32,557 nt of DNA from a virus, in the IMG/VR virus record IMGVR_UViG_3300010370_003319, positions 1 to 32,557 of that record; one strand, 5' to 3'. Under the pieces are notes generated by a model. The model worked only from the letters and a program-made list of their open reading frames with translations, had not been told where the DNA came from and searched no databases. This document shows positions 3,523-32,557 of the stretch, one piece after another (the first letter of the stretch is position 1; every line of letters begins with the position of its first letter). The position numbers and the translations under genes are program-made.

Positions 3523-3541
3523 CGTTAAAAAATAAGTATTT

Positions 3542-7689: not shown

Positions 7690-7710
7690 CAGAATAATAG
7701 TGCTTTCGTA

Positions 7711-9247: not shown

Positions 9248-9276
9248 GGATATACTTTTAGACTTTTTTATGTTAT

Positions 9277-9284
9277 TATTTATG
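9277..9284 (-). promoter_or_regulatory. Late-promoter-like motif CATAAATA
   Basis: Minus strand, 29 nt before the ATG at 9247, in the 51-bp divergent gap shared with hldD. It is 7 of 8 to the T4 late consensus TATAAATA. Confidence 0.5.
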
Positions 9285-9298
9285 ATAATAGGAAAATT

Positions 9299-11265: not shown

Positions 11266-11267
11266 TA

Positions 11268-11621: not shown

Positions 11622-11937
11622 CTGAATTTATTGCTTTATCATCTATATAGTAGTCCGCAGATGGCTTACCCATAATAAGTTGATGATATTTACATCCCCA
11701 AATTCTTAATTGGAGTTCAGTAAGTTCTTTCCATCTTGCAGAAGCAAGGTTACCATCGTCTTGATATGTTCCCATGCCTCTTGCAGTAAAATATTTTATT
11801 ATATTTCCCTCATCATATAGTTTGTTTATCCTTTCAATATTCTCTTTTATGGGAAGAGATGACTCATATTTACAAGTTTTACATATACCAAGTGGCTTAG
11901 CAATAACACCGTCAATATCAACACAATAAGTTTTCAT
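11605..11937 (-). CDS. HAD-superfamily phosphatase-like protein (110 aa)
   Basis: HAD motifs are all visible: motif I DIDGVIA (D7, D9), motif II TARG (T50), motif III MGKP (K90) and motif IV YIDDKA (D97-D98). The small cap-less form with FTARG and LIMGKPSADYYIDDKA is common in capsule and sugar-nucleotide clusters, where it is thought to dephosphorylate a sugar phosphate. GmhB, which removes the 7-phosphate of heptose bisphosphate, is also a HAD enzyme but is longer (about 180-190 aa), so identity with GmhB is unlikely though the role is conceivable here. The ATG overlaps the stop of the truncated carbamoyltransferase gene (ATGA). Confidence 0.85.
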   Translation of the reverse strand: MKTYCVDIDGVIAKPLGICKTCKYESSLPIKENIERINKLYDEGNIIKYFTARGMGTYQDDGNLASARWKELTELQLRIWGCKYHQLIMGKPSADYYIDDKAINSDDFFK

Positions 11938-13010
11938 TGTTCTAATCCCAGATATAAAGTTTTAAGTGGTTTTGGATCCATAGATTGTGTTTGTTGATGG
12001 TACTGTAATTTAGCAAGACCGATTGCAGTACCAGCATCAGTAGAAATTGGTTCCACATATAATTTTACACCTTTTGGTAAAATATCCAAGTACTTATAAT
12101 TTGCAACACAATTTAGAGCACACCCACCAGTCAAGACAATATTTCTTGCTCCAGTTATTTGAATGGTGTACATTATTAAATTACTCATATAATCTTCAAA
12201 ATCTTTTTGAACCCTATATGCAAGATTATAAAGATTTTGTATCTTCGGATTGTTTTTATCAACAGAAAAACCTTTAAAATTTACATAATCATATGGTATA
12301 AAATTAATTCCATATTTAGTTCTATAGAATTGACTAGAATCCAATTTACCATCAATAATAAAAGATTTTATATTTTTATCTTCTTTCCCATACGCAGACA
12401 TACCCATAACCTTACCTGATCCCAAAGATCCAAATCCAAGGTAGTCTGATATTGCACTATAAATCATGCCAATACCTATTGGTTGCCTGTCAAAGGGATG
12501 TTTATCAGATTTCATAAATGAATTTGTTACATTAACATGGTAACATTTGCACTTATTTGGATATTGAAATTTATATATTGATTCAACTTCATGATAATCA
12601 TCGTTAATATAATTTCCCATGCCATCAACGACTAATACTGCAGCATCTTTGAATCCAGAATTGTAAAAACCACAAGCCGCATGATAAACATGATGTTCTA
12701 AAAATAAATCATAGGTTACTTTCTTTTTGTTACTGCAGTTTTGTCTATTAAAAAACTTTTGGACTAAAGTAGAAAATTGTCTGGCAGATTCCTCCATTTT
12801 TCTTTTATCCCAAATTTCATAAAGACCTGATATTTGCAATGGATACAACTCTTCACTATAATCTAAAAAAGGAATAGGAGATAACGGCAATTCAAGTTGT
12901 TTATCTCTCGCGTATCTTTCTTCCTCAACAAACCAATCAATTTCTCCGTCATCATTCAACTGACAAATGGATCCATCATGAGATAAATTTACCCCCCAAT
13001 AAACAGACAT
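11934..13010 (-). CDS. Carbamoyltransferase N-terminal domain only (paralogue 2, no YrdC-like domain)
   Basis: The 358 residues match only the Kae1-like N-terminal domain of NodU/CmcH/TobZ enzymes: NLSHDGSICQL (8-18), metal-binding HHVYH (106-110), VLVVDGMGN (125-133) and TGGCALNCVANYKYL. It stops at LKTLYLGLEQ, the point where paralogue 3 continues into its C-terminal YrdC-like domain. So about 200 residues holding EAGPRALGNRS and RE.FRPFA are absent. The stop overlaps a complete HAD gene's ATG, so this is not a fresh frameshift: no remnant follows. AGGAG precedes the ATG by 9 nt. It may use carbamoyl-adenylate made by a paralogue, or have lost enzyme activity. Confidence 0.88.
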   Translation of the reverse strand: MSVYWGVNLSHDGSICQLNDDGEIDWFVEEERYARDKQLELPLSPIPFLDYSEELYPLQISGLYEIWDKRKMEESARQFSTLVQKFFNRQNCSNKKKVTYDLFLEHHVYHAACGFYNSGFKDAAVLVVDGMGNYINDDYHEVESIYKFQYPNKCKCYHVNVTNSFMKSDKHPFDRQPIGIGMIYSAISDYLGFGSLGSGKVMGMSAYGKEDKNIKSFIIDGKLDSSQFYRTKYGINFIPYDYVNFKGFSVDKNNPKIQNLYNLAYRVQKDFEDYMSNLIMYTIQITGARNIVLTGGCALNCVANYKYLDILPKGVKLYVEPISTDAGTAIGLAKLQYHQQTQSMDPKPLKTLYLGLEQ

Positions 13011-13011
13011 T

Positions 13012-13791
13012 TTAAATACTCCTAATATCTTCTTGTGTTAAAATATAACATCCATAATGTTGGACAGATATCGCAGCTGCTTTATTAGCAAATCTAATAG
13101 AAGAATCTAATCTTGCCTCATGATTTTCATATTGTAAAAATGCATAAACGAATGCTGCAAGGAATGTGTCCCCCGCACCAACAACATCAAACACATTAAC
13201 TTTATCAACTGGATATAATAATTTACAATACTCAACTCCAGACGATCCTTTTGTAACAATTAAATGCTGTGGTTCTGGTTTTGTAATAAGATTGTTATAC
13301 TCTCTCTGATTGATTTTAAATATTACATTCGGTTCAGTAAACAAATCTCTTTTCTTAGTGTCAATGAATACTGGACCTTTAAAATTTTGACAGAATACTT
13401 TAAGATCTTGAGTTGTTAAAAATCCTTTATCATAATCAGAAATAACTACAGCATCATAATTTAAATGAAGAAAGGCACTTCTAACCTCAGATGGTTTTAT
13501 TGGATCAACAAAATTATCTTCATCAACTCTTAATATTTGTTGATTAGATCCGCTATGAACAAATCTTTTTTTCTTAATAAGTTTTTTATTTGTAATATGA
13601 TTTACAAATACTCCAAAAGATTCAAGATTATTCTTAACGTTAGCAGACATTCCTAAAGAAGTTTCTGTTCGTTCATAATTTAAAATTGGTATAGGAGCTT
13701 CTGGACTTATTCTATCTACTGTTCCGTAGATATAACTATCCTCACAGGTTTCCCCTATTAATAATACTGTGTATTGTTTTTGTGGTTGCAT
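13012..13791 (-). CDS. hldA: D-glycero-beta-D-manno-heptose-7-phosphate kinase, HldA/HldE-kinase-like
   Basis: A PfkB/ribokinase-family kinase of 259 residues. The N-terminus has LLIGETCEDSYIYGTVDRISPEAP, split as residues 10-33, of the HldE kinase type, where RISPEAP is the characteristic block. The C-terminus has NQREYNN (161-167), FDVVGAGDTF (201-210, catalytic D208) and a following helix. It adds a 1-phosphate to heptose 7-phosphate. The usual GGAANV is GMSANV here, and the chain is shorter than the HldE kinase domain (about 318). The ATG at 13791 lies 50 nt inside the end of hldC, so the two HldE halves are separate genes in reversed order and probably coupled. Confidence 0.88.
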   Translation of the reverse strand: MQPQKQYTVLLIGETCEDSYIYGTVDRISPEAPIPILNYERTETSLGMSANVKNNLESFGVFVNHITNKKLIKKKRFVHSGSNQQILRVDEDNFVDPIKPSEVRSAFLHLNYDAVVISDYDKGFLTTQDLKVFCQNFKGPVFIDTKKRDLFTEPNVIFKINQREYNNLITKPEPQHLIVTKGSSGVEYCKLLYPVDKVNVFDVVGAGDTFLAAFVYAFLQYENHEARLDSSIRFANKAAAISVQHYGCYILTQEDIRSI

Positions 13792-14149
13792 AGTCACTTA
13801 TTCTATCAAAAAAAATTAATCTTTTTGCATATTGAGAACCAATTACTGGTTTATTTTTCCAATCAGATCCTACAATCATTATATCAGGATTAAATCCTTT
13901 TATCAATTTTTCTAATTCTTCATCACTAGAAAATAACTCAACCTGATTAACAGGTTTTAACATATTTAAAAAAAATTTTCTATCGTCTTGATTATATATT
14001 GGTCTAGTTAACCCTTTTTTTTCTCTTACTCGTTCATCAGTATCAATGGCAACTATCAAGTAATCACCATAAGACTTAGCAAAATTTAAAAGTTCAAGAT
14101 GTCCTTTATGAAGGAGATCAAACGTTCCATTTACAAAAACTTTTTTCAC
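13742..14149 (-). CDS. hldC: Heptose-1-phosphate adenylyltransferase, HldC/HldE-C-like
   Basis: This nucleotidyltransferase of 135 residues matches the C-terminal half of HldE: NGTFDLLHKGHLELL, with the H14-x-G-H17 active site, then ATDTDERVREKKG-like IDTDERVREKKG, DRKFFLNML, VGSDW and the final ISDYATTKTIHSI resembling the family STTxIIxKI. It makes ADP-D-glycero-beta-D-manno-heptose from heptose 1-phosphate and ATP. Related cytidylyltransferases share the fold, but the adjacent HldA and nearby HldD favour ADP-heptose. The start is a GTG at 14149 overlapping the upstream TGA (GTGA). Confidence 0.88.
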   Translation of the reverse strand: MKKVFVNGTFDLLHKGHLELLNFAKSYGDYLIVAIDTDERVREKKGLTRPIYNQDDRKFFLNMLKPVNQVELFSSDEELEKLIKGFNPDIMIVGSDWKNKPVIGSQYAKRLIFFDRISDYATTKTIHSIINRGNL

Positions 14150-14772
14150 GAAAATATCCTCTCAGTATCTTTTTCAGACAACATAAAACTGAATACCCAA
14201 AGTATTCTTTCTTTAGTACCTATAATCTCATCAACTTTATGTTCAGCTTTTGATACAATATATGACAATAAATCAGTTTCTTCAACTTCCCATGGTTGAT
14301 TTTCAATATATGTTATTCCCCCAGACAAAGGTTTTTGTGTTATGAAATTAAAATGAACTGTTTGTGTTCCGTCAAACCAAACTGGATCAACATGTGGATG
14401 CACAGTTCCTCCTTCAAAACTTATCTCACTAACAATTCCATCTTTACCAACTGGAGATAATCCAAAATCTTCAAATTCAAACGTCAATGCTATTCTTTTT
14501 TGTATATCATAAGCAACTTGAGGATAAACAAAATTTGGATTAGAAGAAACTACAAAATTTATATGATCATGAGAAGAAGAATCTAAAAGAGGATTGCCAT
14601 AATTAACTAAAGGGTTAGCAAATCTTGTAGTTAATTTTGTATTTTCAAGTTTTCTTGAATCCATTTTTGGATCTATAAAATAATTCTTTTTATAATTCGA
14701 TAGGGTCCAAGTATTAAGAATATTTTTTTCTTCTTCACTGATAAAATTTTTGTAAGCTTTAACTAAATCCAT
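14146..14772 (-). CDS. 2OG-Fe(II) oxygenase next to the halogenase
   Basis: A 208-residue protein with H127-V-D129 (TVHPHVDPVW), H178 (SKAEHKVDEI) and R189 (KERILWVFSF), the order expected for 2-oxoglutarate dioxygenases, in a beta-rich second half. The N-terminal half (ISEEEKNILNTW, then KKNYFIDPKMDSRKL) is less characteristic. The ATG at 14772 overlaps the halogenase stop by one base (TGATG). Such oxygenases next to flavin halogenases are seen in natural-product clusters, where they hydroxylate a substrate carrier or amino acid. In a phage the substrate is unknown. Confidence 0.72.
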   Translation of the reverse strand: MDLVKAYKNFISEEEKNILNTWTLSNYKKNYFIDPKMDSRKLENTKLTTRFANPLVNYGNPLLDSSSHDHINFVVSSNPNFVYPQVAYDIQKRIALTFEFEDFGLSPVGKDGIVSEISFEGGTVHPHVDPVWFDGTQTVHFNFITQKPLSGGITYIENQPWEVEETDLLSYIVSKAEHKVDEIIGTKERILWVFSFMLSEKDTERIFS

Positions 14773-16292
14773 CACATCTTAACGGGACTAGACGAGTTAA
14801 AAGGAATATTTGCTGGTTCTCCTCTATCAATTCTAGATAAAAGATCATCAACAAATTTTTTATGTAAAATAGATTTTTTATGTTTTTCAATTTCATTTTT
14901 ATAGAAGTCTTCGGATAAGATCAATGCTTGATCAGAAGTTATTCCATTATTTTTTGGTTCAATATTATTTTTATTTAATAATTGGCACAATAAAACACTC
15001 CAATTTTCTCCAACAAACATATAATCCCCATCTGAAGGTAACTCATATGGATTGTTTTGAACCTCATTTTCAAAAAACTTTTGTGTCTCAGTAATATTAT
15101 AAGTGTCTTGAACAAATTTCCAAAACTTACCCGTTGTTCTTTGATTATGTGAATAATGCATACTTACATAATCAACACAATTTTCAAAAAACGCTTTCAT
15201 TTTTTTATTGTAAACAAGAGTATCTATTACATTGTAGTAATTTCCTTTAAGTCCTTCTGCAAGTTCAATAATACCAGCACATATTAATGCAACTCCAGTG
15301 CTTTCTAAAGGTTCAATAAATCCTGCGGATAATCCAATGCAAACAACATTATCTTCCCAAAAATTATTATGATAATATGGAGTCCAATCCAATAATTTTA
15401 AATCATTTTTACTTATCCTATTATTCCAATGTCTGACAAAGTATTCTTTTGCTTCTTCTGGATCGGTTATATCACGATTAAATACTAATCCAGATCCAAT
15501 TCTTGATTGTGTTGGAATTTTCCATATCCATCCATGATCAACAGCGCAACATTTTGTATAAGGGGTTAACTCTTGTTCAATATCATCATAGGGAACATGT
15601 CCTGCAACTGCAGTATCACAAAACAATCTGTCCCTACAATTAACAGTATCTGGTTTAGATCCTAATAGTCTTTTCCATCCAGTACAATCAACAAATAAAT
15701 CTGATTCAATTTCTTCTCCAGATTCTAAGACGATGCACTGTATTCCACCGTTAGAATTTCTTTTAACCTCTACAACTTCTTGACTTACAAAAGTTATTTT
15801 ATTCGATATTTTTGTTTTAATATATTGAACCAACCTACCACAGTCAATATGATTGGCATATGTTCCTAAGTTTGTTGGATCAATTTTATTTTCAGTTACC
15901 GCTGGATTGTACAATGCACAACCATGAGTAAAAAAATCTTTATCCTTATTTAATGTCCAAAGATTTAAAAGATTTGTTTTGAGGTGTTTGAACTCGGGAT
16001 AGGCAAATGGATGCCAAAGATCTGCTCCTTCTTTTTGCCAGTCAGTAAACAAGATTCCACTTTTAAAAGTCGCATCTATAGCTGGAACCCATTCTTCAGC
16101 ATCAAAACCACAAAAATTCATAAACTGTTTAAATGAAAGCACAGTTGCCTCACCAACACCAACAGTTTCTGATTGTGTCTTATCAACAACTACAATCTCA
16201 CAATAAGATCTTACTTTTTTAAGTAAAAAAGCAGCGGTTAACCATCCAGAGGTTCCGCCGCCAACGATTACAATTCTACGAAGGGGTTTCAT
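14772..16292 (-). CDS. Flavin-dependent tryptophan-type halogenase
   Basis: The 506-residue protein has every hallmark of the family. The FAD loop is VIVGGGTSGWLTA (8-20). The halogenase signature WxWxIP is WIWKIP (255-260). The catalytic lysine that carries hypohalous acid is K77 in TFKSGILFTDW. The segment GLSAGFIEPLESTGVAL (320-336) has E330 matching the active-site glutamate. The length fits family members (about 500-550). It uses FADH2, O2 and halide to halogenate tryptophan-like or other electron-rich aromatics; whether free Trp, a peptide or a phage protein is the substrate cannot be read. The ATG at 16292 overlaps the carbamoyltransferase end by 17 nt. Related genes occur in some T4-like cyanophages. 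Confidence 0.92.
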   Translation of the reverse strand: MKPLRRIVIVGGGTSGWLTAAFLLKKVRSYCEIVVVDKTQSETVGVGEATVLSFKQFMNFCGFDAEEWVPAIDATFKSGILFTDWQKEGADLWHPFAYPEFKHLKTNLLNLWTLNKDKDFFTHGCALYNPAVTENKIDPTNLGTYANHIDCGRLVQYIKTKISNKITFVSQEVVEVKRNSNGGIQCIVLESGEEIESDLFVDCTGWKRLLGSKPDTVNCRDRLFCDTAVAGHVPYDDIEQELTPYTKCCAVDHGWIWKIPTQSRIGSGLVFNRDITDPEEAKEYFVRHWNNRISKNDLKLLDWTPYYHNNFWEDNVVCIGLSAGFIEPLESTGVALICAGIIELAEGLKGNYYNVIDTLVYNKKMKAFFENCVDYVSMHYSHNQRTTGKFWKFVQDTYNITETQKFFENEVQNNPYELPSDGDYMFVGENWSVLLCQLLNKNNIEPKNNGITSDQALILSEDFYKNEIEKHKKSILHKKFVDDLLSRIDRGEPANIPFNSSSPVKM

Positions 16293-18078
16293 TTTTAATA
16301 GTAATTAGTGTTTGATATTCAGGTAGATAGAGATATTCAATTAAACTGTTAGCAAGAGTTCTACAAGCATCGTCTAAAGTTTCAACAAGAGGTTCCCCAC
16401 CAAGATTAAATGATGTATTAAAAATTATAGGACAACCAGTTCTCTCATAAAAAGTATTAATTAGATTATAATAATGCTTATTTTGTTCTTGAGTTACCGT
16501 TTGAATTCTACAAGTTCCATCAACATGAATAATTGCTGGAATTTTTTCTTCTATACCATCTCGACAATTTACAGCATACATCATAAATGGAGTCTCATCC
16601 ATTCCACGAAGATCAAACCACTCATGAACATAATCTTTAAGAATAGATCCAGCAAAAGGTCTAAAATATTCTCTACGTTTGATTCTATTTACATGATCTT
16701 TTCCATCTGGATCACGAGGATCATAAAGAATAGAACGATTACCAAGAGCACGAGGACCTGCTTCAGATCTTCCTTGGAACAAAGCAACAATATTTTTATC
16801 CGTAATCAAATCAATTACATCTTCATAGGAAGATTGAGTAACAGAATTTGCATTATATTTTGAAGCAACTTCTTGTATTTGTTGTTCAGTGTACATATAA
16901 GATGGTCCAGTATAAAGATTATCAATTTGTTTTTTAATTTTTTTACTGTTTGTAATTCTATGGTAAGTCAGTAGAGCAGCACCTATTGCAGTGCCAGCAT
17001 CATTACTTACTGGTTCCACAAACAAGTTAATATTCTCATCCTTTAACTGATCAAGATACCAATAATTTGCAACACAGTTAAGTCCATATCCACCAGAAAG
17101 AACTACATTATTATTACCAGACATCTCAACTGCTTTACGAATTAAATCCAATACCATTTGTTGAGATTCTACTTGAATTGCATATGCCATATCTCTGCGA
17201 TTTTCAAGCAATGTCAAGTCTTTACAATCTTCTGGTGTATACAAAAATTCATATCTACCTTCATTAACAACTGCTCCATTTGGATAAGTTGGAACAATTA
17301 CATTTCTATCTGAAGTTTTCCACAATCCTCCACCACCATCAGTATAAATTTTAGGTACTTTTTTATTTGGTTTTCCATATGGGAATAATCCCATAGTTTT
17401 ACCAGCTTCAATAGGAGGCCATCCACAATACTGAGTAACTGCTTCATATGCTTTAGTAATACCAGCACTCTCATCCAAAATTAATTCATGAGTGCCAGTC
17501 TCATCTTCACCAGAACTATCAACCTGAGGAATTAATGCAGATCCCCAAGGTCCTTTTCCTGCTTGATGTTTGTACAAAGTTTTGATATTTGCTGGATATT
17601 CACAAGAAAATATAGATTCAAGTTCCCAACTCATCTCTTGAGATCTTCCAATATTCATTGGAATAAATGTACCTGCACCATCCACAACAACAGATACTGC
17701 AGATTTAAATCCAGACCTATAAAAGGCACATGCAGCATGAAGTTTATGGTGAGTTCTACTCAAGTCTATAACTTGAGGATGATCATATGGGTCTTGATTC
17801 CTATCAATTAACCCAAGTTTTCTTGCCATACCAGTGTAAATATCATCACCAGTAAAATCAATTGTTCCTGCTGACCCTAAAGGTTGAGTATGTGCGATTA
17901 CAAGATAATCAAGTTTTTTAGTATACTCAAGTATCTTAACCATGGACGCTAGAGGTCCACCATCATACTTATGTCTAGAAAGTCTTTCCTCTTCAATAGA
18001 TAAAACAATTTCTCCATTATGTAAAAGACAAACACCAGAGTTATGTCCTCTGGCAATAGCTGCGATCCATTCTGCCAT
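16276..18078 (-). CDS. Carbamoyltransferase, NodU/CmcH/TobZ family (full length, paralogue 3)
   Basis: Six hundred residues with both domains intact: ARGHNSGVCLLHNG (9-22), metal-binding HHKLH (110-114), VVDGAGTF (131-138), LSGGYGLNCVANYWYL (327-342), then the YrdC-like domain with GRSEAGPRALGNRS (436-449), KRREYFRPFA and a closing NTSFNLGGEPLVET. All consensus residues of the C-terminal domain are present, making this the most canonical of the three paralogues. It starts at the ATG at 18078 with TGAGG at about 8 nt. It is more like paralogue 2 than 1 by eye at LNCVANY and EP.S.DAGTAIG. Carbamoylates a hydroxyl of an unknown acceptor. Confidence 0.94.
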   Translation of the reverse strand: MAEWIAAIARGHNSGVCLLHNGEIVLSIEEERLSRHKYDGGPLASMVKILEYTKKLDYLVIAHTQPLGSAGTIDFTGDDIYTGMARKLGLIDRNQDPYDHPQVIDLSRTHHKLHAACAFYRSGFKSAVSVVVDGAGTFIPMNIGRSQEMSWELESIFSCEYPANIKTLYKHQAGKGPWGSALIPQVDSSGEDETGTHELILDESAGITKAYEAVTQYCGWPPIEAGKTMGLFPYGKPNKKVPKIYTDGGGGLWKTSDRNVIVPTYPNGAVVNEGRYEFLYTPEDCKDLTLLENRRDMAYAIQVESQQMVLDLIRKAVEMSGNNNVVLSGGYGLNCVANYWYLDQLKDENINLFVEPVSNDAGTAIGAALLTYHRITNSKKIKKQIDNLYTGPSYMYTEQQIQEVASKYNANSVTQSSYEDVIDLITDKNIVALFQGRSEAGPRALGNRSILYDPRDPDGKDHVNRIKRREYFRPFAGSILKDYVHEWFDLRGMDETPFMMYAVNCRDGIEEKIPAIIHVDGTCRIQTVTQEQNKHYYNLINTFYERTGCPIIFNTSFNLGGEPLVETLDDACRTLANSLIEYLYLPEYQTLITIKNETPS

Positions 18079-21321: not shown

Positions 21322-21329
21322 TATTTATA
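21322..21329 (-). promoter_or_regulatory. Late promoter motif TATAAATA (perfect)
   Basis: Minus strand, 32 nt upstream of the ATG at 21289 and overlapping the stop of the preceding adhesin gene. It is an exact copy of the T4 late -10 consensus, the best of the series in this window. Confidence 0.65.
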
Positions 21330-22116
21330 AGAAACTGATCTTAACTAATCCTGGACCTCCAGTAGATCCAGTTCCGCAGCAGTTACCACCACCACAGTAC
21401 GTTGTCATTGCACCTTGACCACCATGACCATATGGTGATGTCCAGCATCCACAACGCATCCAACATTCATGAATTTGAGTTTGAACTTGAGTTCCAATAA
21501 AAGGAGCTGCCGTTGGTGAAGATCCTTGACATTGACAATGGCATTGTGCCTGATGAATAAAGAAAGCACCTCTATGATTACTCATTCCAAAATCACCACC
21601 CCATGCCCCAGGACTCATGCAGCAATATCCCCAATCAGAGAAGCAAGCTTCGTTCCATGATCCATTTGCACATCCAGCATCTCCTCCTGCAGCACAAAAA
21701 TTACTTAAATTGCATCCATTAACATAAGATGCACATCCACGACAAGATACGCATTCTATAGATTCACAAGGGAATACACCGCCAGCACAGATAGTATATT
21801 GCCATCCTGGGCAGACTGTTAACATTTTTGTATTATAAAATCCACCTTGAGCACCAGCATAATGTTGACATCTAGAGGTTGAACACATTCCATGTCCATT
21901 TCCGCCAGCACCCCAGAGTTCAAAATAAACTCTTCTCACACCAGTTGGAACAGTCCAAAGACAGCAACAACCACCAGAACATCTATCTGGATTTCCATAA
22001 AAATATCTAACATTCCAAGTACAAAATACTCCAGATGCTACCGCAGTTGTGGGAAGAGATCCATCATCTAATTGCACTGAAGCGTCAATTTTTTTATAGC
22101 TTGCGTATGATGCCAT
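21325..22116 (-). CDS. Cysteine- and glycine-rich adhesin-like protein, copy 1
   Basis: The 263-residue protein starts MASYASYKKI and contains about 28 Cys, over 10%. A strand-rich segment WTVPTGVRRVYFELWGAGGNG matches the glycine-rich domain found in phage adhesins. Clusters such as GGCCCLW, CHCQC, HECWMRCGCW and TYCGGGNCCG are spread through it, with YVNGCNLSNFC in the middle. There is no signal peptide and no catalytic motif. Cysteines may form disulfides in the mature virion or bind metal. It is one of three tandem paralogues with almost the same plan. A late-type motif is 20 nt upstream. A role as receptor-binding tip is inferred from location and glycine-rich composition. Confidence 0.65.
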   Translation of the reverse strand: MASYASYKKIDASVQLDDGSLPTTAVASGVFCTWNVRYFYGNPDRCSGGCCCLWTVPTGVRRVYFELWGAGGNGHGMCSTSRCQHYAGAQGGFYNTKMLTVCPGWQYTICAGGVFPCESIECVSCRGCASYVNGCNLSNFCAAGGDAGCANGSWNEACFSDWGYCCMSPGAWGGDFGMSNHRGAFFIHQAQCHCQCQGSSPTAAPFIGTQVQTQIHECWMRCGCWTSPYGHGGQGAMTTYCGGGNCCGTGSTGGPGLVKISFL

Positions 22117-22136
22117 CTTTGCAAATCCTTTTTTTT

Positions 22137-22144
22137 TATTTATT
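22137..22144 (-). promoter_or_regulatory. Late-promoter-like motif AATAAATA
   Basis: Minus strand, 20 nt before the ATG at 22116, overlapping the stop of the second paralogue. It is followed by an A-rich leader and a GGA ribosome site. Confidence 0.5.
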
Positions 22145-22943
22145 AGTAATAGGTAATACGGACTAATCCTGGACCTCCCATATTTCCTTGTCCGCAGCAG
22201 TTACCACCACCACAGTAAGAGGACATACCACTTTGTCCACCATGACCATATGGAACTGTCCAACAAGCACAACGCATCCAACAATAATTAATTGACATTT
22301 GAACTTCTGTTCCAATTAATGGTGCAGAAGTTGATCTTGTTTGTTGAAGATGACAATGACAGAATCCAACACCAAACCACCATTCAACACCACCAAAAGC
22401 ACCAGAGTGATTAATATACCCAAAATCGCCACCATTGTTTCCTGGTCCAACACAACACTCCCAGAATGAGTGACATGGAGTTGCCCAATCAGTGTTTGCA
22501 CAAGCAGCAGATCCACCAATTGCACAGAAGTTACTTAAATTACATCCAGTAACATAAGAGGAACATCCAAAGCATCCAATACATTCAAATCTACAACATG
22601 GTCCATTGCCAGCAGCACAAATAGTATATTGCCAACCAGAAGCAACATCTATGGTTCTAGTATTATATGCTCCACCACCTGCACCTCTATAGTGGTGGCA
22701 TCTGCTAGTGGAACATGCACCAGATCCACTTCCACCAGATCCCCACAATTCAAATTGAACTTTAGTTACACCCGAAGGAACTGTCCAAAGGCAACAACAA
22801 CCACCAGAACATGCATTTGGTGATCCATAAAACCATTGAACTCCAAATGTTTTTCTGGTGTCAATATTAAATTTTTCTGCAGTTACTGATCCTGCATCAA
22901 GAGATACTCCATTAATTTTTTTATAGCTTGCGTATGATGCCAT
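22143..22943 (-). CDS. Cysteine- and glycine-rich adhesin-like protein, copy 2
   Basis: Second member of the tandem set, 266 residues with about 26 Cys. It shares the N-terminus MASYASYKK, the WTVPSGVTKVQFELWGSGG block, NGC/TGCNLSNFC, NYCWMRCACW and SYCGGGNCCG with its neighbours. Differences are concentrated in the middle: around residues 105-125 (CCRFECIGCFGC) and the WWFGVGFCHCHLQQT stretch near 195. The strong AAGGAG ribosome site is 9 nt before the ATG at 22943. There is no separate late motif, so it is probably cotranscribed with the paralogue at 22958. Divergence in the middle and conservation of the ends would suit recombination or selection at a binding surface. Confidence 0.65.
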   Translation of the reverse strand: MASYASYKKINGVSLDAGSVTAEKFNIDTRKTFGVQWFYGSPNACSGGCCCLWTVPSGVTKVQFELWGSGGSGSGACSTSRCHHYRGAGGGAYNTRTIDVASGWQYTICAAGNGPCCRFECIGCFGCSSYVTGCNLSNFCAIGGSAACANTDWATPCHSFWECCVGPGNNGGDFGYINHSGAFGGVEWWFGVGFCHCHLQQTRSTSAPLIGTEVQMSINYCWMRCACWTVPYGHGGQSGMSSYCGGGNCCGQGNMGGPGLVRITYY

Positions 22944-22957
22944 CGCCTTTGTACTCC

Positions 22958-23752
22958 TTAGAAATAAGTAATTTTAACAACACCAGAACCACCAGTTGAT
23001 CCTCTACCGCAACAGCTACCACCACCGCAGTAAGTGGTCATTGCACCTTGACCACCAGATCCATAAGGAACGGGCCAGCATCCACAACGCATCCAACATT
23101 CAGTAAGTTCACCACTTACAAATCCAGATCCTAGGAAAGGAGCACCAGAAGAACATTCAATATGACGATAGCAGTGACATGCAAAAGATCCAGAGAATGA
23201 TCCAGCATGATTACCCATCGCAAAATCACCACCCCATACACTTCCACTAGGAGTTACACAACATCTACCCCAATCAGAGTTGCACATTGTATTCCAATCA
23301 GTGTTAGAGCATCCACCCTTACCACCAATTGAACAGAAGTTACTTAAGTTACATCCATTAACATAAGATGAGCATCCATCGCAAGCATAACATTCAACAC
23401 TAGAGCAAGGATGAACTCCAGCAGCACAAATAGTATATTGCCATCCATCCTGAACATCAATAGTTTTTATATTATAGTATCCACCTTGAGCACCAGCATA
23501 GTGATGGCATCTAGAGGTTGAACACATTCCATGCCCATTTCCACCAGATCCCCAGAGTTCAAAAGTAACCCTTCTTACACCAGTTGGAACAGTCCAAAGA
23601 CAGCAACAACCACATGTGCAGTCACCCAAAAATCCACGAATCCACTGCACATTATAATTTTTAAATGCAGTTGCTGATAATTTAGCATCAGTAACAGTAC
23701 CGTCAATCAGACTAGTTCCAGATACTTTTTTGTAACTTGCGTATGATGCCAT
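22958..23752 (-). CDS. Cysteine- and glycine-rich adhesin-like protein, copy 3
   Basis: Third member, 264 residues with about 27 Cys, first in transcription order. It has WTVPTGVRRVTFELWGSGGNG, CSTSRCHHYAGAQGG, YVNGCNLSNFC, LTECWMRCGCW and TYCGGGSCCGRG. It resembles copy 1 more than copy 2 in the central part (MCSTSRC, AGAQGG, GWQYTICAAGV). Its late-type motif (23774-23781) and the preceding hairpin isolate it from the long fibre gene. Adhesin or fibre-tip function is inferred; alternatives are an internal virion protein or a metal-binding protein, given the cysteine content. Confidence 0.65.
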   Translation of the reverse strand: MASYASYKKVSGTSLIDGTVTDAKLSATAFKNYNVQWIRGFLGDCTCGCCCLWTVPTGVRRVTFELWGSGGNGHGMCSTSRCHHYAGAQGGYYNIKTIDVQDGWQYTICAAGVHPCSSVECYACDGCSSYVNGCNLSNFCSIGGKGGCSNTDWNTMCNSDWGRCCVTPSGSVWGGDFAMGNHAGSFSGSFACHCYRHIECSSGAPFLGSGFVSGELTECWMRCGCWPVPYGSGGQGAMTTYCGGGSCCGRGSTGGSGVVKITYF

Positions 23753-23828: not shown

Positions 23829-26800
23829 TTAGATCGAGAAGATTCTCCATCCATAAGTGTTACCAGAGAAGATCAACTCAAGTGCAGCACTTTCAGTGCT
23901 AACTGTTAAGTTATCTGCATCACCCTGAATCAGTTTTCCATTACGAGCAATTGTTAATGCATTAGTATCAAATGTCTTAGCAATATCATAGAATCTAATC
24001 TTATCACCAACGTTTGGCGATGCAGGAAGAGTAAGAGTAACGGCACCACCAGAGGTGTTTACAAAGTATGTTGCCCAAGCCACAACATTACCACTTGATG
24101 AAGTTGATGTTGGAGTTACTTCTCCTGTAGGAATCCAAGAAGTACCATTGTAATACTCCATGGTCTTAAGATCAGAGTTATAACGGAACTGACCTTCAAG
24201 TAAAACTACTGGTCTTTCTGCAGTAGTTCCTGTTGGAGGAATCATTGCCTCAACACCCATCTTATCTCTTGTGAGATATCCACGAACAGCAAACTCAGTT
24301 GGGCAGGCACTGTTAGAGTTGCCACTCATTGTCTCATCAGATGAGAACTCGTTAATTGCCTCACCAATTTGTCCACCAAGAGAACCGAGTCTCAGTTCTG
24401 TCAGACCAGACAGGTTGAATGCAGAAGCATCAAGAGTTGCAGCACCAGTTAACTGGTTAACAGCGAAGAGATCGCCAACACGGAAGTTACCACCTTGGTC
24501 AGTAGATACGTAGAATACTTTAGCAGGACCAAAAGTATTAACTTCGTTACCCTGAGCAACGTTAGCCTCATCAACGTTTGGATAATTAGTCTCAACCTTG
24601 TTACCAACACCAATTGAGAGGAAGTCGTGACCTGTTAAACGAGCGTTGGAGAATCTGGTTCTAATCTCAGTAAATGAACCACCGTCTGTAGTTGTAGTTC
24701 CAAGACCAGCACGAGTATCAGGAGTTGCAGTTCCTTTCTCTGGAGAGATGGTTACAGTTACTCTATTCCTATAGGTAACAGGTGCCAATCCAGTATTACC
24801 ATAACCACGATACTGAGTATAAGATGTAGTAAATCCAGTTACATTATTAATGATGTAGAATCTTGGTGCATTATTAACTCTATCACTACCAATACCTGTT
24901 GTAGTAAATCCGATTGCATCTCCAATAAGTGGAAGATTATTAGGATCAACATCTGACAGTTCAATAATAACACCTTTTTGACCACTTACAGATCCAGCAG
25001 CAGTTGCAACTCTGATTGCACCAGTAGTTCCAGCACCGATAAAGGTAATCCATTCACCATTTACGAATGAAGTAGTGCCAATTCCAGCAGCACCATAACC
25101 TGGATAATACTTAAAGTAAATTCTATCAGCACTGGTTTGATCATTAATAAATGTTGCTCTTGCACCAGAAGTTTCACCGATCATGGTCATACCAATACCA
25201 ACGGTTCCACTTAAAGTACCAACGACAGTATCTAATCTGTCACCAAATACTCTAGCAGTTCTTGCAGTCTCAGCAGTAGAGAATCCAGAAGAAATAACAC
25301 CATAATCACCATAAGAGTTGTTACCACCAACACCACGAATTCTTGATCCGCCGCCAGAATAGTAACCCCATCTGCAGTAATATGTGAAGGAGGATACGAT
25401 TTCAGCACCAGCATCCTTATCCAGAATAAATCCAGCACCATCACTAAGAACGTTGGTATATGCATCAAATACCATTGTCTTAAATCCACTGGAGTGAACT
25501 CCACCATCAAGGAACGCTCCAACACCAGCACCACCATATCCAGCAGGATCAGGACTACCGAATGAGGTACAATCCTTAACATAAGGAGATTTATTCAGAA
25601 TTGGAGAACTTGGATTAAATGCAAAGTATACACCACAAGCAGTAGTTCCAACTCCAGCTCTTACAGTTGTTGCATCTAACTCATAAGGTCTTACTGGATC
25701 ATAATCAAATCCAACCATTCCATCAACGTTAATACCTTGAATTGTAGTCGCATCCGACAATCTAAACATTGTCTGACGATTGTTTGGAGTAACACCATCG
25801 GTTGATAAACCTACAGCAGGTCTAACTTTAGAAGATCTTAGAGTTGAACCAACAACAGAGGTAAAAGGTGGAACTGTAATTGGAAGTTGCTCAGCAAATT
25901 CAGATGCAGATAATTTGACAACCGCAGGAGAAAGGTTAATTACTTGACCACCTCCTACGTAATCATGATCAATTGTTGATACGCCAACATTAACTCTAAA
26001 TGTATTATTATCAATAACATCAAGAACGTTATAATATGAGGTCAATATATTTCTTGGGAATACTGTAGTATCAACGCCAACAAATGCTGTACCACCACTT
26101 ACATAAATGTGATTAATTGTAGAAACACCAACGTTAACCACAAAAGAAGTTGGACTATTTACTGTAGTTACGGTAAAGTTATAATTGTCTGGTCTCGTTC
26201 CATCTGGGAATATAGTTGTAGTAATTCCAGAACCACCTGTACAAGTAAATTCAAGATTTTTTAATCTAATAACTGTACCATTAGTAATTCCAGTAGCAGC
26301 AGCTCCAACAGTTACTGTACCGATACCAGATGTTTTATCATACTGGAATCCAGTAACGTTATATGATCTACCACCACTAAGACATTCAAACTCAATACCA
26401 TTTAATCTAATTGTAATATTTGGATATAAGATACCATGTGATGGAGCAGTTACAGTAGCAATACCAGTTACATTATTATAATGGAAATTTGTAATGTTTG
26501 TAATGGCACTTGCATTATCACAAGCATACTTCAATGTTCTGAACGCCATATCTGGCGTACTACCATTATAAGTATCAGAACCAAGTTCTGGGTCAACATA
26601 ATAGATTCTAGTGGAATCTCCAAGGGTCATCCAAGTAGGAACCCTGTCCGTACCAACTCCTAAAGCTTGATATGTAAATCCAATACCAAGTCTTGCTGGA
26701 GCAGAAGCATCTCTGATTAAAATATCACCTTTGGTTGTTAACAGAGCATTAGAATCTCCAAGAGCGAGTGCTCCCCATTTTGTCGCGTCTGTTCCAGGAG

Positions 26801-27638
26801 TAATGTTCTTAAATGAAGTCGAACCGAGACCAACGTAGGAAGATGATGCATATTCTACTACATCATTAATAAAATATTCTGTAGTTGTAGAATATGCACC
26901 AGCATATCTCAGTCCACTATTAAATAGTTCCCAAGCTGTAACTGCAACGCCAACAACGGTCGTTCCAACACCAACAGTTAATCCTTTTGTTGGATGAACA
27001 TTCTCGACAGACGTGGCGGTTAGTTGATATGTATTACCACCAACTCTTACTAACTCACCCTTATAATAAGTTGCACCTGCTTGCCAGGTTGTAATGCCAA
27101 CAGAATTAAAACCTTCAGAAAGAACATTCCATTCTGTTTCTAATTGTGTTGGTGGAATTTGACCAGGAGTTGACGTTTGAATTGCAACGTATGCAGTCCC
27201 TCTATACACAACAACGTCGCCGCCCTGGTAAGTAGCTCCAGGATCCCACGCACCTTCGCCGTTGAATCCAGTTACATATGGAACAACATTAGGATTAGCT
27301 GGTCCACTAGTACCAATACCAGCAAAAACTAATCCAGCAGTTGTACCAATACCTGCGGTAACTCTGTATTGAGTATTGCCGTAGAGTACAACATCGTTCT
27401 TTTTATAAAAAGTTCCACCACTAAATACGCCAACATTTCTGATTCCTTCAACGTGTAAGGACCAGTATGCTTCGTCAGTAGCGTACCAATTGACTTCATT
27501 TGCTACTGAAGTATGATTGGTAGTACAAACGTAAGTATTAGCACCGAATTTTACGATATCATCAATGACGTAAGCGGTGCTAGGAGTCCAATTGCTTCTC
27601 CAATTGAATTTTAGTCTTCCTAATCTAAAATCAGCCAT
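23829..27638 (-). CDS. Long tail-fibre protein with carbohydrate-binding-like repeats (1269 aa)
   Basis: The first 290 residues hold five tandem units of about 45-65 residues (near 17, 70, 129, 184 and 246). Each has the pattern of CBM5/12-like modules (for example YVIDDIVKFGANTYVCTT and YFINDVVEYASSSYVGLG). Next comes YYVDPELGSDTYNGS followed by RTLKYACDNA near 345-370, the usual entry of a right-handed beta-helix, then a long Gly/Thr/Val-rich region with many IGTT or VGVST turns. The C-terminus ends in a small beta domain (DKIRFYDIAKTF). This fits a distal tail-fibre or baseplate-attached fibre that binds host surface sugars. The start is the ATG at 27638 with AAGGA about 11 nt upstream. 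Confidence 0.8.
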   Translation of the reverse strand: MADFRLGRLKFNWRSNWTPSTAYVIDDIVKFGANTYVCTTNHTSVANEVNWYATDEAYWSLHVEGIRNVGVFSGGTFYKKNDVVLYGNTQYRVTAGIGTTAGLVFAGIGTSGPANPNVVPYVTGFNGEGAWDPGATYQGGDVVVYRGTAYVAIQTSTPGQIPPTQLETEWNVLSEGFNSVGITTWQAGATYYKGELVRVGGNTYQLTATSVENVHPTKGLTVGVGTTVVGVAVTAWELFNSGLRYAGAYSTTTEYFINDVVEYASSSYVGLGSTSFKNITPGTDATKWGALALGDSNALLTTKGDILIRDASAPARLGIGFTYQALGVGTDRVPTWMTLGDSTRIYYVDPELGSDTYNGSTPDMAFRTLKYACDNASAITNITNFHYNNVTGIATVTAPSHGILYPNITIRLNGIEFECLSGGRSYNVTGFQYDKTSGIGTVTVGAAATGITNGTVIRLKNLEFTCTGGSGITTTIFPDGTRPDNYNFTVTTVNSPTSFVVNVGVSTINHIYVSGGTAFVGVDTTVFPRNILTSYYNVLDVIDNNTFRVNVGVSTIDHDYVGGGQVINLSPAVVKLSASEFAEQLPITVPPFTSVVGSTLRSSKVRPAVGLSTDGVTPNNRQTMFRLSDATTIQGINVDGMVGFDYDPVRPYELDATTVRAGVGTTACGVYFAFNPSSPILNKSPYVKDCTSFGSPDPAGYGGAGVGAFLDGGVHSSGFKTMVFDAYTNVLSDGAGFILDKDAGAEIVSSFTYYCRWGYYSGGGSRIRGVGGNNSYGDYGVISSGFSTAETARTARVFGDRLDTVVGTLSGTVGIGMTMIGETSGARATFINDQTSADRIYFKYYPGYGAAGIGTTSFVNGEWITFIGAGTTGAIRVATAAGSVSGQKGVIIELSDVDPNNLPLIGDAIGFTTTGIGSDRVNNAPRFYIINNVTGFTTSYTQYRGYGNTGLAPVTYRNRVTVTISPEKGTATPDTRAGLGTTTTDGGSFTEIRTRFSNARLTGHDFLSIGVGNKVETNYPNVDEANVAQGNEVNTFGPAKVFYVSTDQGGNFRVGDLFAVNQLTGAATLDASAFNLSGLTELRLGSLGGQIGEAINEFSSDETMSGNSNSACPTEFAVRGYLTRDKMGVEAMIPPTGTTAERPVVLLEGQFRYNSDLKTMEYYNGTSWIPTGEVTPTSTSSSGNVVAWATYFVNTSGGAVTLTLPASPNVGDKIRFYDIAKTFDTNALTIARNGKLIQGDADNLTVSTESAALELIFSGNTYGWRIFSI

Positions 27639-27656
27639 CGTTTTTAAATTCCTTTT

Positions 27657-28013
27657 TTACTTAGGTCCTTGAGTTACATGATCATAACTGCCATTAATTC
27701 TGGCAACTAAATATCCATCGTCATCAATAAAATAGTTTAGATTTCTAAAATCAAACCTATACTGTTGGTATTTATCATGTGGATGATTCTTATAAGATTT
27801 CTCTTCTGTAGTTTCATCAACATAATCAACACCATCTAGGAACCCTGGATATTGAGTTCCATCTGTTCTATGAAAATCTCCAATTTCTGTGCTTCCAGCA
27901 CCAACCTTCGTATAGCGCAACATGCCATCCGCATCTCTACGGAGGGCATGAACGATAAAATCGTTTGAGTCTGCCACCGATTTGGTGGAATTATCCATTC
28001 TACTTAGATTCAT
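27657..28013 (-). CDS. Putative virion structural protein (118 aa)
   Basis: Starts at the ATG at 28013 (MNLSRMDN), which overlaps the TGA of the upstream gene (ATGA); the longer frame from 28043 is less likely. The protein has ADSNDFIVHALRRDADGMLRY, a GxG turn (VGAGSTEIGDF) and a C-terminal NYFIDDDGYLVARINGSYDH. The composition and the position between two tail-fibre genes suggest a small tail or fibre component. I recall similar proteins in cyanomyovirus structural regions. Function beyond that is unknown. Confidence 0.6.
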   Translation of the reverse strand: MNLSRMDNSTKSVADSNDFIVHALRRDADGMLRYTKVGAGSTEIGDFHRTDGTQYPGFLDGVDYVDETTEEKSYKNHPHDKYQQYRFDFRNLNYFIDDDGYLVARINGSYDHVTQGPK

Positions 28014-28468
28014 GTGAACAGTCTCCAGTAAGTTCCTTCCCAAATTAACTCAACGTATGCACCAGCCAAATCACAATTCAAAAATGTATCAATGAACCCA
28101 GTGCCATCTTTAATTAAGTCGCCACCTTGAGCATTTACTGTAAGATTATTTATATTCCAAGTGTATTTGGAGTCTGCTATGTGAATAGTATCCCCAACAA
28201 ATCGGAGGGTGGGTAAATTTACTGTAAAAGGACCGCTTGATGTATCAGAAAAATACTTAATATTTGTTCTCAATGTATCGCCATTGTTACTGATGCTGAG
28301 ATTAGTTAATCTCGACTTTTGAACCTCAACACCAGACAATGTAAGTCCATCATGGACTCTGATTGTTCCTTTATCAGTGTCAAAAGTTACTTCAGCTAAT
28401 GCACCAGTAAATGTCGAATGTTCAAGCTCCGTCCCTTTACGTAGTTGTACCCGTTTGGTATTAGCCAT
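28010..28468 (-). CDS. Tail-fibre protein with Mtd-N-like domain (152 aa)
   Basis: The first 40 residues, VQLRKGTELEHSTFTGALAE followed by VTFDTDKGTIRVHDG, match the RKGT...LAE..D.....DG pattern of the major tropism determinant N-terminal domain and similar phage fibre attachment domains. A beta-rich C-terminal domain follows (PFTVNLPTLRFVGDTIHIAD, ending GAYVELIWEGTYWRLFT). It is thus probably a short trimeric tail-fibre or connector protein. The late-type motif GATAAATA lies 24 nt before its ATG at 28468. The next gene's ATG overlaps its stop. Confidence 0.72.
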   Translation of the reverse strand: MANTKRVQLRKGTELEHSTFTGALAEVTFDTDKGTIRVHDGLTLSGVEVQKSRLTNLSISNNGDTLRTNIKYFSDTSSGPFTVNLPTLRFVGDTIHIADSKYTWNINNLTVNAQGGDLIKDGTGFIDTFLNCDLAGAYVELIWEGTYWRLFT

Positions 28469-28492: not shown

Positions 28493-28500
28493 TATTTATC
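28493..28500 (-). promoter_or_regulatory. Late-promoter-like motif GATAAATA
   Basis: Minus strand, 24 nt before the ATG at 28468 and just after the second stop (28504-28506) of the large fibre reading frame. It is 7 of 8 to TATAAATA. Confidence 0.5.
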
Positions 28501-28503
28501 AGT

Positions 28504-28620
28504 TTAAATAACTACAATTCTAGTAGGTTGTGGTCTCTGGTACTCAACATACTTGGACTTGGTATTTGCGGCAAGAATATCAACATTACCTTCAGCAATA
28601 TGAGGTGCAGGAGTAAAGGA
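28504..28620 (-). pseudogene. In-frame continuation of the large fibre gene after a TAA stop (38 codons)
   Basis: Directly after the TAA at 28621-28623 the same reading frame stays open for 38 codons to the TAA at 28504-28506. It begins SFTPAPHIAEGNVDILAA and ends QRPQPTRIVVI. Its start aligns with repeat units earlier in the same protein, where ESFTPWIPPGSG and ESFSPWIKPGSG occur, and with SPAPHVGKG. The simplest reading is that one codon, probably GAA (Glu), became TAA and cut off the last repeat and C-terminus. Stop readthrough, genuine truncation or a sequencing error are the alternatives. There is no separate start codon in this piece. Confidence 0.6.
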
Positions 28621-31600
28621 TTACTTCTTGGTTCCAGAGAATTTAACAACTGGACCTTGTGGGAATGTTCTGAGTCTGAAGACTGTGATACCTCTGGAAA
28701 GATCTCCTGGAAGTCCTGGGTTGCTGAGACCAACTCTGATCTGACCAACTGCAACATTTGACAATGCAACCTTGACAATTGGAGTGCCTGTGACAGTAAA
28801 GAGGGTGGTCTTGACTTCCGTATTTGATTTGCTCTCGGAAGCACCAACAAATCCAAAGATGGATCCAGATCCAGTTCTTGGAACTGTAATTGAATCTTTT
28901 GCTGCACCGCGAACAGTAAACAGGTTCTGAAGATTTGGTGGAACAATAACTCTCGCTTCTGTTGTGCTGGAGAATCCAAAGAGAGAACCTGTTCCGCGAT
29001 ATGCATTTGTCTTTCTCTGAACAACCGATCCATTGATATCCAGACCAGGAGTTCCAAATCCAATATAAGATTTTGCTTTTCTTTCTTGAAGTTTTCCAGC
29101 AAATCTGAAGAGAAGTGTTTTGTCTGGTGGATTAACAACTCTAGATTCAGTTGCACTAGAGAATCCAAAGAGGAATCCTTTTCCAACATGAGGTGCTGGT
29201 GATACTCTTTCTCTGAGATTTCCAGAGAATTCAAAGAGGACATTCTTACTACGTTCAGATACGAGTGTTGTTTCAGTATCCGATACATATGTGAATAGAG
29301 ATCCCTTACCAACCTCAACATTAACATCCTTCTCTTTAGCATTACCAGTGAAGCTAAAGAGAGTTGTTTGATCTGGTGGGTTAATAACTCTGGTCTCAGT
29401 CTTGCTACCAAATCCAAATATTCTTCCACTTCCAGTATAATTGCCCTTGGTAAGGGATTCTGTTGCGCGACCATGAATTTCAACTGGTTGCAATCCAACA
29501 GGATCAGCACTAAGGGTGAATCTAATAAGATTACCATTGTCACCAAGAATTCTAGTCTGTACAAACTTAACTTCAGATGCAGTAGATTTAAGATTTGTAA
29601 CTTGACCACTGATGTTAAACAGAGTTGTAATGTCTGGTGGATTAGAACCAACTGCATTTGCACCAGATCCAAATCCAAACAGTTTACCGCTTCCTGGTTT
29701 GATCCATGGAGAGAATGATTCTGGTGCAATTCTAACTCCAGAATTACGAACAAAGATAGATCCACTTCCAAGATGTTTTGGAAGAACATATACTGCAGCA
29801 TTGCCAACAATTCTGAGTTGCGAATCTTTGGTTGTCTCCCAATCAGATGTAAATTTAAGACCAGATACTTGTTGTTTAACAGAACTGAGTACCAGTCCAC
29901 CACCAATCTTAAAGAGTTCACTACTAAACTCAGATGCAGATCTTTTTTCTGTGTTAGATACACCCTCAAATGTAAATATTCTTCCAGATCCAGGTGGAAT
30001 CCATGGAGTGAAGGATTCTGGTTCAATTCTAAGACCAGAATTGCGAATAAAGATACATCCACTTCCAGTCTCTTCTTGACCAGTTGCCTCTCCAGATCCA
30101 TCAAATCCAAAGAGTCTACCTTCTGCCAACCAAGACGCAGTGAATTTGAGGTCAGATACCTGCTCATTAACAGAACTGAGAACAAGACCACCACCGATAT
30201 CAAAGAGAGGATCTGCTTTACCTGGAGTAAATGCAACCGTCTCGGTAAAGGAGACATAACTGAAGAGAGATCCAGATCCAATTTCTGTTGCAGGAGTTGT
30301 GGACTCCGTACCATTTCCTGTAAATCTGAATAGATTTATTGGAGGTACAGGAACAACTGCGATTGCCTCTGCCGTGCCACTGACGCCAAAGATGCGACCA
30401 CTACCAACAAATACATTAGTACGGGATTCAATAACACCGTCTCTAAAGGTAAATGCACCTTGAGGTTCAAGACAATCATCTGGATAAAGAGTTCCATAAT
30501 CTTCATGATTGTATTGTTCAAACTCACCAAGTACACCAAAGTCAATCGCATTTAGATTTCTTCCATACTCAGATACAACTTCATTGGCAAGAGCACTGAT
30601 AGGAGTGCTAAGGAATCCAGCAAGTTGTGGAGACTCTTCAACATTATATACAGATTCAGATATGAGACCATAATCATCTCCATCACATGCACCAAATGAA
30701 GAGTCTTCATTGTAAGAGAATGTGAAGGATTCACTTGCTCCGTCAAATCCAAAGAGAGAACCTGTTCCAACTTCACTGAATATAGACTTCTCAACCAATT
30801 CACCAGTGATAGTGAATAGACTTCCAAATCCATCTTTAACCAGAGTTGATTCTGTAGTACTGGAGAATCCAAAGAGGGTTCCAGTTCCATCATAATTACC
30901 CTTACCAAACTTCTCTGTTGCATTACCAGCAAAGGTAAAGATACGTTGTTGAGTATCATCAATTGGTGGTTGAACAAGAGTTGCATCTGTTGTGCTTGAG
31001 AATCCAAACAGAGATCCAGTTCCAACCTCATCATTAGATCTAGATTCAGTGGTCGATGAAGTAATGTTAATAAGATCACCCTTAGAGGTGAACTTAGGAA
31101 GAACATAAATCTTGGCACTACCAACAAAGCGAAGATGAGTTTCTTCAAGATTACCAATAAAGGTTCTAGATCTTGGAGTCTCAGTAGTGCTATAGAATCT
31201 AGCAAGACCAAATGGAGTTCTGGTCTCTCTAGGATCAAGAATACCAAAGTCTTCAACTTCCCATGGGAATTCTAGATCTTGATTACCAACAAATCCATAA
31301 TCTTCAGATAGTGTTACAGTGTCAGTAATGTATCCATAATCAATTCCTTCAACATTAACGATTGAAGATTCATTATATGCATATGCCCTTCTATTAATTT
31401 CAACGTTACGGAAGGTGAATACTCTATCAACTGGATTAAAGATGACTGTGTAGACTGCTCCACCTCTAACCAAGATATCATTTTCACTGACTCCGACTTC
31501 ACTACGTCCAGCATTGAATGTTGTTCCACTATTAATACTGAATAGTTTAGCGGTTGCAGATTCACTAGAGACAGATGTTTCTGCAGAACTATCAAATCCA

Positions 31601-32557
31601 AATAGCGATCCACCACGGAATCTATTTGGATAGAAGTCCCATCCACCATCTGCCTTATAGTGCATCCTGATTTGGACACGAGGCGTACCTTCAAGACTAA
31701 TTTTACCAACACCATTAATTTTTGGTGTTGCATAATCTTTTGCAGTACCAAGCAATCTTGGTTGCTTATTACCAACCGATCCATCATAATTTGCAAATAT
31801 AAAGCTTTCTTCTGCACTACCAGCAAATCTAGATCTACCATAGACTTTGTTGGTAACGTTCTCTGTAATGAGACCCCAATCTTCAATGTTGGAGTAATCC
31901 CATACAGGAACATCTTGAAGGTCTGTGATTAGACCATAATTTTCACTTCTAAGAACTGGTTCTGTAAGGAATCCCCAATCATCAGAACCAAAGTCTACAT
32001 CATCACTTTGATCGTATTGGTAAGTTCTACTCTCTGTTGCCTCACCAATAAAGTTAAAGACTCTATCTTGTGGGTTGAATATTACTTGTTCTACACCTTC
32101 TCCAGATATTTTTAAGCGGAGGGTAGATGTTGCTGGAGAAGCTCCAACAGCATCAAGTCCCTCCGACTCAACAGTGGACATATTGCCCCTTCCCAACCAG
32201 GAAGAGACAATAGTGTTGTATGCTTCACCTTCAAACTCAAAGACCCTATTAACTGGGTTGAAGAATACTGTTGTTACTGCTCTACCATACAGGGCAAATT
32301 CAACACCACCAACACTTACCCTTGTAGTGCTATCATTTGCTGCAAGATGAATACCAAATTTACCCATTGGTACTCTTGCAGTATCCAATGTAATGGTTCC
32401 AAAGTCTTGAATCTGATAGTATTGCTCAATAGTAGCAGTGATCTCTCCGTAATCTTCTGCTTCTATTACAGCATCAACAATACTACCATAATCAAGTTCT
32501 TCATAATTAACAATAGAAAATTGGGTATACGAATATACCGCACTTTGAGAACTTAAT
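28621..32557 (-). CDS. Very large repetitive tail-fibre protein (5' end outside window, at least 1311 aa)
   Basis: The minus-strand frame is open from the right edge (32557) to the TAA at 28621-28623; the internal ATG/TTG near 32388 is not the real start, because the frame continues upstream with NYEELDYGSIVDAVIEAEDYG-type sequence. The protein consists of many imperfect repeats: LFGFSS.TE..., LF.F.GN..E..., GSGSLFGF and, in the N-terminal half, D/E-Y/W-G-x-I/L motifs such as NYGLITD and DWGLITE. Two long related units (GGGLVLSSV...GLKFTS and SGxRIxPESFxPWI) occur twice. This is a beta-repeat fibre, probably a long tail or distal fibre. Gly/Ser/Thr/Phe-rich repeats create long out-of-frame open stretches that are not genes. 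See the adjacent 38-codon continuation. Confidence 0.8.
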   Translation of the reverse strand, partial: LSSQSAVYSYTQFSIVNYEELDYGSIVDAVIEAEDYGEITATIEQYYQIQDFGTITLDTARVPMGKFGIHLAANDSTTRVSVGGVEFALYGRAVTTVFFNPVNRVFEFEGEAYNTIVSSWLGRGNMSTVESEGLDAVGASPATSTLRLKISGEGVEQVIFNPQDRVFNFIGEATESRTYQYDQSDDVDFGSDDWGFLTEPVLRSENYGLITDLQDVPVWDYSNIEDWGLITENVTNKVYGRSRFAGSAEESFIFANYDGSVGNKQPRLLGTAKDYATPKINGVGKISLEGTPRVQIRMHYKADGGWDFYPNRFRGGSLFGFDSSAETSVSSESATAKLFSINSGTTFNAGRSEVGVSENDILVRGGAVYTVIFNPVDRVFTFRNVEINRRAYAYNESSIVNVEGIDYGYITDTVTLSEDYGFVGNQDLEFPWEVEDFGILDPRETRTPFGLARFYSTTETPRSRTFIGNLEETHLRFVGSAKIYVLPKFTSKGDLINITSSTTESRSNDEVGTGSLFGFSSTTDATLVQPPIDDTQQRIFTFAGNATEKFGKGNYDGTGTLFGFSSTTESTLVKDGFGSLFTITGELVEKSIFSEVGTGSLFGFDGASESFTFSYNEDSSFGACDGDDYGLISESVYNVEESPQLAGFLSTPISALANEVVSEYGRNLNAIDFGVLGEFEQYNHEDYGTLYPDDCLEPQGAFTFRDGVIESRTNVFVGSGRIFGVSGTAEAIAVVPVPPINLFRFTGNGTESTTPATEIGSGSLFSYVSFTETVAFTPGKADPLFDIGGGLVLSSVNEQVSDLKFTASWLAEGRLFGFDGSGEATGQEETGSGCIFIRNSGLRIEPESFTPWIPPGSGRIFTFEGVSNTEKRSASEFSSELFKIGGGLVLSSVKQQVSGLKFTSDWETTKDSQLRIVGNAAVYVLPKHLGSGSIFVRNSGVRIAPESFSPWIKPGSGKLFGFGSGANAVGSNPPDITTLFNISGQVTNLKSTASEVKFVQTRILGDNGNLIRFTLSADPVGLQPVEIHGRATESLTKGNYTGSGRIFGFGSKTETRVINPPDQTTLFSFTGNAKEKDVNVEVGKGSLFTYVSDTETTLVSERSKNVLFEFSGNLRERVSPAPHVGKGFLFGFSSATESRVVNPPDKTLLFRFAGKLQERKAKSYIGFGTPGLDINGSVVQRKTNAYRGTGSLFGFSSTTEARVIVPPNLQNLFTVRGAAKDSITVPRTGSGSIFGFVGASESKSNTEVKTTLFTVTGTPIVKVALSNVAVGQIRVGLSNPGLPGDLSRGITVFRLRTFPQGPVVKFSGTKK

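Follow-up and report, generated by a model that had tools for sequence, protein, structure and literature searches.

The closest described counterparts of the gene examined here are giant hypothetical proteins of Kyanoviridae belonging to phrog_11522, namely SXBG_00232 of S-CAM1 (2130 aa) and S250808_094 of S-CAM3 (2558 aa). Both carry LFxFxG...E and GSGSLF repeats, both are followed by genes for a 152-aa tail protein, a ~130-aa protein and a large tail fibre, and both end in RTYGWII. The same place in the gene order is held by SSSM7_110 in S-SSM7 (1529 aa, ending RTYVVII), SfFS3_93 in Sf-FS3 (1505 aa, RVYVTII) and SSCSM2R_111 in S-SCSM2R (1369 aa, RTFTIIV), all of which have aliphatic ends. 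Our literature search returned nothing on this giant gene or on a similar truncation.

We analyzed a viral record of 32,557 bases (IMGVR_UViG_3300010370_003319; the window is this whole stretch), which we judge from gene order and relatives to be a T4-like cyanophage. Its giant protein matches the profile of phrog_11522, a family of unknown function, in four stretches (E 5.5e-56), and the gene lies just upstream of the 152-aa tail protein and large tail fibre genes, as it does in that family. The repeats and this place among tail genes suggest a fibre or fibre-like structural protein. The window shares with S-CAM1 and S-CAM3 both repeat types, the order of the downstream genes and an aliphatic end, here encoded past a stop codon; the S-CAM proteins differ in that they are longer and untruncated and share ~30% identity with it in the repeats. 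The S-SSM7, Sf-FS3 and S-SCSM2R proteins also differ in that their end is intact, and they are not matched by the window’s C-terminal 299 residues (tblastn, 1e-5). The closest relatives found, IMG/VR 3300020200_001135 (L005) and 3300042881_004112 (L006), share ~79% amino-acid identity over the gene and have the same neighbours, but their proteins end in PTRIVVI.

An in-frame stop near the end of the giant gene

The giant gene is open on the minus strand for 1311 codons from the window edge to a TAA; since the protein begins MALFQYEGIGSLRSLGNK in relatives, the first ~18 codons lie beyond that edge. The frame reads ...VVKFSGTKK and then TAA (28623-28621), and the product as read ends in FSGTKK. 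The 38 codons past the stop (28620-28507) encode SFTPAPHIAEGNVDILAANTKSKYVEYQRPQPTRIVVI and run to a second TAA, an arrangement that the sequence-only reading had described with every coordinate correct. The features are as follows.

28621..32556, minus strand: giant repeat-bearing fibre-like gene (open frame; phrog_11522 match)
29161..29238, minus strand: internal repeat unit closest to the interrupted one, LFEFSGNLRERVSPAPHVGKGFLFGF; its codon at the stop position is GAA
28624..28626, minus strand: AAG (Lys) codon preceding the stop, GCA in close relatives (alignment with relatives)
28621..28623, minus strand: in-frame TAA where relatives have a conserved glutamate codon (frame reading; alignment)
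28507..28620, minus strand: 38 in-frame codons past the stop, homologue of the relatives’ conserved C-terminal half-repeat
28507..28530, minus strand: QPTRIVVI, the C-terminal signature P-x-R-I-x-[IV]-I-stop, kept family-wide at the protein level
28504..28506, minus strand: second TAA, where relatives terminate (frame reading; relatives)
28493..28500, minus strand: GATAAATA, late-promoter-like, just past the terminal stop (consensus match; similar sites in relatives)
28010..28468, minus strand: downstream neighbour, 152-aa tail protein with an Mtd_N domain, intact and 95% identical in the related contig L043

With the local base composition, 38 open codons arise by chance with a probability of 0.073, and a few other genes in the window have in-frame extensions of equal or greater length. 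At a chance of ~7%, openness of the tail alone is thus weak, non-significant evidence. Similarity to the repeats, unlike openness, exceeds chance: the 26-residue stretch spanning the stop scores 43 (BLOSUM62) against the internal unit at 29161-29238, above the maximum of 35 reached in 200 shuffled controls, and it aligns without gaps to L006. The proposal that the stop falls on a Glu (GAA) of the repeat therefore stands for this unit, which is a closer counterpart than the two originally cited; those align less well in register (scores 15-17).

The glutamate codon and the carboxy terminus in relatives

A search of viral contigs using the region 5′ of the stop identified six loci at 80-86% identity, all of which read GTK-A-E-SFTPAPH...QPTRIVVI-stop and carry GAA where the window has TAA. 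Pattern scans with SFTPAPHIA and with PTRIVVI-stop brought in additional, more distant members. Each of the 14 viral contigs with a PTRIVVI end (~11 distinct sequences) has GAA or GAG in place of the stop and continues past the Glu as SFTPAPH...PTRIVVI-stop, confirming that the TAA stands for a Glu codon, as first supposed. When 28 members are aligned over their last 215 residues, mean column identity is 36%, while conservation of the Glu column reaches at least 90%.

An independent scan anchored on the neighbouring 152-aa tail protein gene was blind to the tail sequence and so could not favour intact tails. Over the stretch fetched, it revealed no truncated relative among the giant family genes upstream of that gene, and only this contig has TAA at the stop position among all relatives checked, in collections from which records very close to the window’s own may be missing. 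The comparison with relatives went against the opposing case set out in the sequence-only reading, in which homologues end at the same KK or continue into unrelated sequence. A scan for FSGTKK-stop as a natural alternative end returned chance matches only, in stop-riddled frames. Neither megablast of the stop region against phage records nor tblastn with the 38-residue tail (a short query) produced a match, and no relative was found in species-genome contigs.

All 33 giant-protein termini that we compared, a set that contains near-duplicates and also S-CAM1, S-CAM3, S-SSM7, Sf-FS3 and S-SCSM2R, have I or V as the last residue and I, V or L before it. The most common form is P-x-R-I-(Y/V/F)-(I/V)-I, and the S-CAM-type end is R-T-Y-G-W-I-I. 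The lost terminus had been called conserved-looking from the window itself; its conservation extends further than could have been known from there. Codons at the conserved terminal residues vary freely (ATA, ATC or ATT for Ile; TAT or TAC for Tyr), indicating that the constraint acts on the protein, and the signature is absent from the ends of neighbouring genes. In the window it is encoded only past the stop, and the product as read lacks an aliphatic C-terminus. The consensus of cyanophage late promoters is NATAAATA (PMC2984593). We considered the signature as a by-product of overlapping promoter DNA and rejected this, because the codons are free and the NATAAATA-like motif lies 3′ of the stop.

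The C-terminal signature is described here and falls outside the published phrog_11522 family definition. Since the C-terminus never disappears while the length of the proteins spans about 1321 to 2558 aa, we infer that its extreme end is a site of defined contact, serving either to cap the repeat stack or to dock with a partner. Retention of the last few residues across wide relatives, in a fast-changing and unannotated cyanophage structural gene, points to such a contact. For the C-terminal 215 residues of one relative (L044), AlphaFold2 run on a single chain gives a model with a pLDDT of 29. A bolder generalization would be that a short signature for docking or capping, P-x-R-[IV]-[YVF]-[IV]-[IV]-COOH or R-T-Y-G-W-I-I-COOH, outlasts a body diverged almost beyond recognition, and that this contig is a natural truncation in which a viable phage has lost it; we consider this combined claim unlikely. 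One metagenomic contig with a premature stop is nothing unusual, and the family-wide signature is a more useful result than an ordinary nonsense allele.

Age and origin of the stop

The dN/dS of the tail is 0.15 between the window and L006 and 0.31 between the window and L005, and that of the upstream part is 0.27 and 0.17, respectively. The tail thus resembles the rest of the gene, which argues for its translation through nearly the whole period since the lineages diverged, and in the window it still has the invariant residues of its close family. Residue changes found only in the window affect 5 of 38 positions in the tail versus 8 of 170 upstream (Fisher p 0.065), a weak hint of relaxed constraint. 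Taken together, the sense codon in relatives and the past purifying selection indicate that the stop is either young and lineage-specific or an error of the metagenomic consensus.

Around the stop, the window reads AAG TAA where L005 and L006 read GCA GAA, a run of four differing bases. We dropped this GCAG/AAGT difference as a special event, as mismatch runs of at least four bases are common between these genes at their divergence of 20% of bases. The preceding codon is itself variable in the wider family (A, D, Q, R, N, K or F), so that one G-to-T change at the Glu codon suffices and is the simplest origin of the stop.

We favour, at slightly better than even chances, a conserved Glu codon that recently became TAA in the contig’s lineage and left a product 39 residues shorter. 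The sense codon in every relative, the constraint on the tail and the failure of the 152-aa-gene scan to recover a truncated relative all support a recent, real stop. The consensus also looks clean, since no second clearly disrupted gene was seen in the window (the 1311 upstream codons and the neighbours are open); its small genes match their families mostly full-length. Against a real stop, one wrong consensus base would look identical, the preserved invariant residues are expected too under continued translation, a lytic phage without a universally conserved end should be counter-selected, and this contig is the sole example.

If the stop is real, the ancestral giant gene would have continued to PTRIVVI-stop, and the Glu codon opening the last half-repeat would have become TAA, most simply by that single change. 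The product would then end 39 residues early (the Glu and the 38 that follow), without the final half-repeat and the C-terminal signature. The lost end may be a capping or docking element of the tail fibre; with such a contact missing, the truncated form would assemble poorly, and the stop-bearing phage might be impaired or a minority variant. In the sequence-only reading, this tail was put forward as a possible attachment, trimerisation or tip-binding segment.

Nearly as likely, and a serious possibility that we place somewhat short of even, is that the TAA is a consensus error or an unrepresentative minority base, and that the actual population has a sense codon there, for Glu or another residue, and encodes the full-length protein. 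The TAA is unique among all relatives compared, the tail has been under purifying selection with its invariant residues intact, and the record itself is a viral fragment of 32.6 kb from a metagenome. Consensus errors are, however, rare in deep short-read assemblies, no other lesion is seen in the window, and the slight surplus of window-specific tail residues also speaks against an error. An allele seen in no relative and a tail still intact point either to a very young mutation or to an error. Automatic annotation of the contig would enter a false C-terminus as the natural one.

Adaptive truncation, in which a shorter fibre is functional and favoured, for instance through altered host contact, is very improbable. 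Phage fibre genes change quickly, and the relatives’ proteins vary widely in length, but across all that variation the C-terminus is never lost. Least probable of all is the programmed or tolerated readthrough raised in the sequence-only reading, which would yield a little full-length protein in addition to a predominant short form, for although the frame past the stop is open and conserved, the stop is absent from every relative at that position, all comparable termini are reached without an intervening stop, the stop lies in a UAA-U context, which is a strong terminator, and no RNA structure was detected downstream (fold z-score 0.12, no better than shuffles).

Other features of the window

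Downstream of the 152-aa tail protein gene, a 128-aa gene (27657-28043) ends in TAA, after which its frame runs without another stop into a 1269-aa tail fibre gene (23829-27638). The arrangement recurs in S-CAM1 and S-CAM3, where the two genes are distinct and lie 15 bases apart, so 23829-28043 is an ordinary gene pair and no second readthrough case. Adjacent to the tail fibre gene, at 21325-23752, three genes lie in tandem, each 263-266 aa long and starting MASYASYKK. The two that were scanned both match phrog_4205, and together with the shared start this makes the three genes probable tandem duplicates.

Within the giant gene, another frame contains a 600-codon ORF (28512-30314) rich in Leu and Ser, which is probably an artefact of repeats and codon use. 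Among relatives, three loci upstream of the tail protein gene (L074-L076) have a true frame ending in RTYGWIV, and in L074 and L075 a second frame is likewise open for all 489 codons fetched.

A cluster at 6062-18078 combines three carbamoyltransferase-like genes (6062-7681, 11934-13010 and 16276-18078), two 2OG-Fe(II) oxygenase-like genes (10074-11271) and one resembling a tryptophan halogenase (14772-16292). The cluster is a putative small-molecule or glycan modification gene set, unusual in a cyanophage. The window also carries an S-adenosylmethionine decarboxylase gene at 3196-3585 (Pfam AdoMet_dc, E 8.9e-35).
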